Made by a program: the position numbers and the translations under genes. The notes under the pieces were generated by a model. It had not been told where the DNA came from, ran no database searches, and saw only the letters and a list, made by a program, of their open reading frames with translations. From Akkermansia muciniphila (GTDB taxonomy: Bacteria > Verrucomicrobiota > Verrucomicrobiia > Verrucomicrobiales > Akkermansiaceae): 42,935 nucleotides of DNA. This document shows, piece by piece, positions 26,257 through 26,886 of this stretch; within the stretch, counting starts at the first letter, position 1; every line of letters begins with the position of its first letter. The stretch lies in NCBI RefSeq assembly GCF_018709685.1, contig NZ_JABDHQ010000020.1, positions 1 through 42,935 on the forward strand, read 5' to 3'.

Positions 26257-26301
26257 TCGCCTGCGCGAAAATTCGTACACGCGCGTTCATTTTAACCTTA
26301 C

Positions 26302-26316
26302 AAGGAGAATCCTATC
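26302..26316 (+). promoter_or_regulatory. Ribosome-binding site and AUC codon of infA
   Basis: AAGGAG at 26302-26307, spacer AATCCT, then ATC at 26314-26316. The spacing is optimal for initiation, and no ATG, GTG or TTG in this frame occurs for the next 106 codons. Confidence 0.6.
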
Positions 26317-26826
26317 AGCCCGAATCCAAGACCCAGCAACCGCCCCAGCGGCGGCCAGAATTCCCGCCCCGGCCCCAGGCCGGCAGGCAGCAGCACAAGA
26401 CCGGCCGGCAACGGCAGCCGTCCCGGACAGCCCCGGCCCGCAGGGAGCGGCACCGGCCCGGCACGCCCGGCCGGACAGTCCGCAGGTCCGGGAGGAGCCA
26501 GAACAGGCGGGGGACCGCGCCCCGGAGGCGGACCGAACCGCCCGCGCCCGCAGGGAGGCGGACGCCACAAGGGCAGAAGGCACTTCAGCAAATCAGCGCC
26601 CAAGGAGGAAAACTCCGAAAGTGAAATTGAAGTGGAAGGCACCATCTGCGCCGTGCTGGCAGGCACCATGTTCAAGGTGCGCCTGCCCAACGGGCACGAA
26701 GTGCTGGCCCATATCTCCGGCAAGATGCGCAAGCGTTTCATCAAAATCGTGGTAGGCGACAAGGTCCGCATGGAAATGTCTCCCTATGACATGACCAAGG
26801 CGCGCATCACCTTCCGCATCGGTTAA
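26314..26826 (+). CDS. infA: Translation initiation factor IF-1 with Gly/Pro/Arg-rich N-terminal extension, probable AUC start
   Basis: The last 64 residues are an IF-1 OB-fold: [62 protein letters not shown]-1 binds the ribosomal A site during initiation. The frame is open upstream to a stop at 26293. An exact AAGGAG (26302-26307) stands six bases before an ATC at 26314. The next usual start codon in frame is GTG 26632, which would give a bare IF-1 but has no well-placed ribosome-binding site. From ATC the product has 170 residues, the first 106 being low complexity (for example [20 protein letters not shown]) and then a short acidic linker. The family is certain; the start and extension are inferred and need proof. 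Confidence 0.8.
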
Positions 26827-26851: not shown

Positions 26852-26886
26852 AAAAACCTTCTCCGGCTTGCCGGAGAAGGTTTTTT
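26852..26886 (+). terminator. Intrinsic terminator after infA
   Basis: A perfect 15-base stem AAAAACCTTCTCCGG/CCGGAGAAGGTTTTT (26852-26866 with 26871-26885), loop CTTG, with a further T. It separates infA from nnr. Confidence 0.92.

Follow-up and report, generated by a model that had tools for sequence, protein, structure and literature searches.

Initiation factor IF3 represses initiation at non-canonical start codons and autoregulates its own gene infC, which starts with ATT in E. coli and with ATC in Streptomyces (PMC5472188), and with AUA in S. aureus (PMC13009471). The codons AUC, AUU, and AUA, collectively termed AUH in the following, are subject to IF3 discrimination, whereas AUG, GUG, and UUG are not (PMC4611024), and IF1 contributes to the quality control of initiation (PMC13345285). 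Fidelity-controlled autoregulation has likewise been described for yeast eIF1, and the basic, unstructured tail of yeast eIF1A promotes the use of suboptimal start codons (PMC5756025). In a literature search, which covered few subscription journals, an AUH start was not reported for infA, the gene of IF1; the nearest case was chloroplast infA with its UUG start (Hirose 1999, cited in PMC9845219).

The infA gene of Akkermansia muciniphila, whose start codon almost certainly belongs to the AUU/AUC/AUA class, can be compared with known systems. With E. coli infC, which is under translational autocontrol from its AUU codon, it shares two traits: the AUH codon from which an initiation factor is made is of the kind rejected by IF3, and this factor raises start-codon fidelity; the differences are that infA encodes IF1 instead of IF3, that the feedback is putative, and that GUG is the start codon of Akkermansia infC. 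The genes infC (AUA), cvfC1 (AUU), and ccpN (AUA) of S. aureus, which carry an extended Shine–Dalgarno (SD) sequence, resemble it in combining a conserved non-canonical start with a strong SD, but they are other genes and their starts were mapped by ribosome profiling (PMC13009471). Chloroplast infA is an infA with a non-AUG start (PMC9845219), but its UUG does not belong to AUH and escapes IF3 discrimination (PMC4611024). The GTC start of Streptomyces sigR, which is repressed by IF3, is also a codon through which IF3 limits synthesis, but sigR encodes a sigma factor and the codon is GUC (PMC5472188).

The window, that is, the whole stretch of 42,935 nucleotides that was analyzed, stems from an Akkermansia genome of 2.86 Mb in 48 contigs, in which a single infA match was found. 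The features of the locus are the following:

26293–26295, + strand: in-frame TAA stop codon that closes the infA frame six codons before the start (read from the sequence)
26302–26307, + strand: SD sequence AAGGAG, six bases 5′ of the start and complementary to CUCCUU in the 16S tail
26314–26316, + strand: ATC, almost certainly the start codon of infA; from the upstream stop to the domain there is no other AUN, GTG, TTG, or CTG codon in frame
26317–26607, + strand: N-terminal Gly/Pro/Arg-rich extension of about 98 residues including the start, predicted to be disordered (dN/dS, pLDDT)
26608–26823, + strand: IF1 OB-fold domain (TIGR00008, PF01176, pLDDT)
26632–26634, + strand: GTG, the first canonical start codon in the infA frame; an internal valine codon inside strand 1 and not the start, with leucine or isoleucine at this position in 7 of 16 aligned relatives
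26824–26826, + strand: TAA stop codon of infA (read from the sequence)
26855–26886, + strand: perfect inverted repeat (loop of four bases) with a T run, a probable terminator (read directly from the sequence)

The start region reads CCT TAC AAG GAG AAT CCT ATC in the infA frame, and neither ATG nor GTG nor TTG occurs between TAA 26293 and GTG 26632; every element of the layout in the original prediction, from the upstream stop through AAGGAG and its six-base spacing to ATC 26314, is thus present in the sequence. At its 3′ end, the 16S gene in the window genome reads CACCTCCTTTCT, with which AAGGAG can pair. The genes 5′ of infA in the list of open reading frames (ORFs) are rplM- and rpsI-like; we take them to be rplM and rpsI, names that were recognised by eye, and they are divergent relative to infA. 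An assembly error was rejected, as a second, one-contig assembly of the same species (G009) is identical over the region. At the infA start there was no RNA structure signal (z −0.61), and the search for known RNA families gave one sub-threshold match, which lies downstream on the other strand and was judged to be due to chance. The hairpin and T run 3′ of infA (26855–26886) was not among the results of a terminator pattern scan. The motif AAGGAG-N6-ATH by itself proves little because it occurs 73 times in the 2.86-Mb window genome, as compared to 31 times for the reversed-pattern control; 30 of these 73 sites, infA not being among them, were examined, and none of the 30 had the layout of infA. 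What goes beyond chance, as judged by comparison, is that the motif is kept at the same place in relatives. The corresponding pattern with ATG was found only 66 times in the window genome (control 28), and a strong SD at such a spacing hence seems to be rare there.

The encoded domain is an IF-1: It scores 97.2 bits against TIGR00008 (cut-off 61.15) and 83.5 bits against PF01176 (cut-off 30.2), in both cases above the curated cut-off. The length of the protein is atypical, as an IF-1 usually consists of a lone OB fold of about 72 residues and here some 98 residues precede the fold. Twelve solved IF1 sequences match over the domain only, and the predicted structure reaches a pLDDT of 93–96 in the IF1 fold, with values mostly below 50 for residues 11–102. 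The extension had been predicted with a length of 106 residues; its existence was borne out, but its length was not, as 106 is the count to GTG 26632 and the domain begins after about 98 residues by comparison with E. coli IF1, which sets this boundary. Measured to the first residue of the domain query, the extension comprises 100 residues in the window protein, and the medians of the individual genera lie between 27 and 45 residues.

That the basic extension is translated, as had been proposed, is strongly supported by comparison with relatives. In a codon alignment of eleven A. muciniphila-like genomes, from which the identical G009 and the diverged G011, G057, and G075 were left out, 17 synonymous changes face one non-synonymous change between G000 and G008, and 19 face one between G000 and G004, G008 and G004 being the two nearest among the relatives compared; dN/dS ranges from 0.02 to 0.41 over the ten pairs computed. 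A plain DNA alignment contains 34 gaps, six of which are not multiples of three and form three 2+10 pairs that restore the frame. Frame-breaking stops or indels were not seen in the close relatives, whose frames are open, and the stops within the matches of G024, G053, and G060 sit upstream of the ATG starts of those species. The alignments accordingly indicate that the extension evolves as a translated protein under purifying selection. Over 196 genomes of the family, the extensions contain 18% Arg, 17.5% Gly, 14% Pro, and 8% Lys. To our knowledge, no function has been assigned to a bacterial IF1 tail. The IF1-related OB-fold factor eIF1A also carries a basic, disordered tail before its fold, which in yeast favors poor start codons (PMC5756025); the R and K content together with the low pLDDT give the bacterial extension the same character, so that a bacterial IF1 can carry an eIF1A-like tail. 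This likeness is one of composition and disorder, and the eIF1A tail may serve as a lead for the role of the bacterial one. As a side observation, many Akkermansiaceae (G001, G005, and others) contain a further IF1-like match that is diverged and scores below the cut-off for IF-1; it was not found in the window genome.

Comparison of the 5′ part of infA, which the original prediction had suggested as a check, showed that the place of the start, the frame, and, in Akkermansia genes with AUH, AAGGAG are kept, with a substitution pattern rich in synonymous changes. We classified the infA start in 196 of 221 genomes of the family; the other 25 had no match, met a contig end, or were not retrieved. 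In Akkermansia the ATG nearest the domain was taken if present and otherwise the first AUN; in the other genera it was the AUN nearest the domain at a distance of at least 21 codons from it. Under this rule, which considered AUN codons only and not GUG or UUG, 67 genomes start with AUH (55 AUC, 7 AUU, 5 AUA) and 129 with AUG. A missed GUG/UUG class is unlikely because extension lengths are narrow within most genera. The AUH class is conserved in relatives in that it occurs in 11 of the 14 genera, yet 129 of 196 genomes have AUG. By genus, the starts are 11 ATC, 4 ATT, and 55 ATG in g1 (Akkermansia); 1 ATC in g2; 15 ATG in g3; 1 ATT in g4; 50 ATG in g5; 9 ATC in g6; 1 ATA in g7; 4 ATC in g8; 10 ATC in g9; 4 ATC and 4 ATA in g10; 14 ATC in g11; 2 ATT in g12; 9 ATG in g13; and 2 ATC in g14. 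Roseibacillus persicicus (L049), for example, has ATC and Persicirhabdus sediminis (L052) has ATA. An infA match was found in 72 of 76 Akkermansia genomes, and 55 of the 70 classified use AUG; all 15 classified non-AUG genomes of the genus have AAGGAG at six bases, including G057 and G075, for which the ATT that follows AAGGAG at this distance was chosen manually. In G075, where further in-frame GTG and ATG codons follow downstream, the plain rule had given ATG. Two observations stand beside this classification: The infA of L040 (CAJXVQ010000063.1) has 131 open codons with neither ATG nor GTG nor TTG and a lone AUN, an ATT 13 codons before the domain, and fits no rule. In addition, an in-frame ATA directly precedes the ATG in 34 of 55 ATG-started Akkermansia infA genes (e.g., L021, L024, L182), perhaps as a trace of an older AUH start.

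A bare AUH pattern could reflect an internal residue because ATC, ATT, and ATA are synonymous isoleucine codons. An in-frame NTG occurs elsewhere between stop and domain in 22 of the 67 AUH genomes; in the other 45, neither ATG nor GTG nor TTG is found from the stop to the domain, and for those 45 it is therefore ruled out that AUH is an internal isoleucine codon of a protein begun at a standard codon further upstream. Moreover, the stop lies at most six codons upstream of AUH in 35 of the 67 genomes and at most one codon upstream in 12, and in 32 the frame contains no AUH, NTG, or CTG ahead of the codon and no NTG after it. A conserved internal isoleucine with a start further upstream was rejected on these grounds. 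ATC 26314 aligns with the ATC, ATT, and ATA starts of relatives and also with the ATG of A. glycaniphila (L034, the same contig as L016), which reads ATG AGT CCA as compared to ATC AGC CCG in A. muciniphila. The proposal that ATC 26314 is the start of infA has thus been borne out by the relatives, and we are highly confident that translation begins at this AUC. It is hardly credible that translation starts elsewhere, either at GTG 26632 or upstream via read-through or frameshifting: GTG 26632 is indeed the first standard start in the frame, and a 64-residue ORF is the sole one that the ORF list holds for it, but the codon encodes residue 107 within the first strand of the IF1 domain and is not conserved, being replaced by leucine or isoleucine codons as listed above, and was rejected as a start in agreement with the original assignment. 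Against a start elsewhere stand the purifying selection on the extension, the divergent orientation of the upstream rplM-like ORF, and the 12 genomes in which a stop lies within one codon of AUH.

The sequence context of the codon also differs between the two classes. A U at −1 precedes 65 of 67 AUH starts but 56 of 129 AUG starts, and 46 of 48 AUH as compared to 51 of 112 AUG starts when distinct contexts are counted (p = 1e-10, not corrected for descent). A weak codon would benefit from a U at this position, since the base can form a pair with A37 of the initiator tRNA. An SD, defined as at least five matching bases at 3–10 bases from the start, was found in 37 of 67 AUH genes and in none of the 129 AUG genes, and 34 of these 37 have AAGGAG at 5–7 bases; as 30 of the 67 AUH genes are without SD, compensation by an SD is not general. 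Of 30 genomes chosen for a UvrC tree, 28 were included (there was no match in G076, and G207 gave fragments only); on this tree, two changes are needed between AUG and AUH, six among the four codons, and three for the SD. Because the changes are so few, the associations of AUH with the SD and with U at −1 cannot be separated from descent. The small number of AUG/AUH changes would fit a tolerated relic, in which AUG was lost by drift and has not been regained. We regard such a relic as very improbable, since changes within the third base of AUH (at least four) outnumber the two changes between AUG and AUH, U is kept at −1 in nearly all AUH genes, and AAGGAG stands at 5–7 bases in 34 of the 37 SD-bearing genes, in a setting in which AAGGAG-N6-ATG is as scarce as described for the window genome.

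Start codons of infC, which were read by eye (loci L112–L141 and L352–L371), follow another pattern. Outside Akkermansia, 20 genomes of the family were chosen, two of which gave no match, and all 18 that were read have AUA (13) or AUC (5). Within Akkermansia, 74 genomes matched, and GUG was found in 32 of 32 loci read. Because infC starts at GUG, Akkermansia is without the E. coli-type start on IF3; judging from these loci, it is IF1 and not IF3 that has the non-canonical AUH start in this genus. Within the family, infA (AUH or AUG) and infC (AUH or GUG) starts occur in all four combinations, which provides material for testing autoregulation. In control genes, ATG stood at the position closest to the homologous start in all distinct readable loci of rplM (44/44), rpsI (48/48), and nnr (14/14).

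With moderate confidence, we read these data as a weak, fidelity-sensitive infA start that limits the synthesis of the fidelity factor IF1, in analogy to the AUU start of IF3 in E. coli. An IF1 made from AUC 26314 would carry some 98 N-terminal residues as a basic, disordered tail. We infer that initiation at AUH is weak, as the third codon base would remain unpaired with the initiator anticodon, and that it would be helped by the U just before the codon and, in Akkermansia as well as four other genera, by the strong AAGGAG. Plentiful IF1 and IF3 would cause 30S complexes on AUH to fall apart, so that little IF1 is made, and their scarcity would improve infA translation: Because AUH is under IF3 discrimination with a contribution of IF1, an infA read from AUC should be made less at high and more at low IF1/IF3 activity. 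The supply of IF1 would thereby be tied to initiation accuracy, like that of IF3 in E. coli. Selection for a synthesis that is low or regulated has probably maintained the AUH start; for a true feedback of IF1 and IF3 on infA, in line with the self-limiting control suggested in the original prediction, which is consistent with the facts and with the infC precedent, the balance tips just slightly in favor.

The AUH start might instead merely fix a constant low output of IF1 with no feedback by IF1 or IF3, which we consider somewhat unlikely. In S. aureus, reporter output from non-canonical starts was about 10% of that from AUG in poor medium and, for one gene, up to 30% in rich medium (PMC13009471), and the relatives have either AUH, often with an SD, or AUG without SD, which looks like two routes to a similar output. 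However, GUG or UUG would lower the output without IF3 sensitivity, and neither was needed for any of the 196 genomes, whereas the third base varies among C, U, and A in the 67. Returning to the fidelity-sensitive start, a wider conjecture, which is speculative and unlikely, would be a two-gene accuracy thermostat in Akkermansiaceae: IF1 and, outside Akkermansia, IF3 would start at codons that both factors reject, the eIF1A-like tail would adjust the acceptance of such codons, and IF1 would sense and set how much is made of itself and of the products of other AUH-started genes, with the A. muciniphila group keeping the loop on IF1 alone. The AUH starts of infA in Akkermansia and many relatives suggest that start-codon accuracy controls the amount of the accuracy factor IF1, and their conservation would place IF1 under the fidelity-controlled autoregulation known for IF3 and yeast eIF1. 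In practical terms, such infA genes are likely missed or shortened by gene callers restricted to ATG, GTG, and TTG.

Sixteen of 18 more distant loci (L094–L111) have ATG, GTG, or TTG two to four codons before the aligned domain, like an ordinary short IF1, and the remaining L100 and L103 have longer frames. In the GTDB families f2, f3, and f4, 26 genomes matched and 20 were read; ATG was found in 16, and four (L405, L409, L411, L414) have long open frames to which no start was assigned. In the GTDB family f5, all three genomes examined have an AUH start, namely AAGGAG-N6-AUC, AUC, and AUU, each after U, and in two of them (L419, L426) in-frame NTG codons also lie upstream of AUH. Immediately ahead of the domain (MS.DGK), all three f5 loci (L408, L419, L426) contain another in-frame start candidate, a second ATG, and this family may produce long and short forms of IF1, the short one from that ATG.
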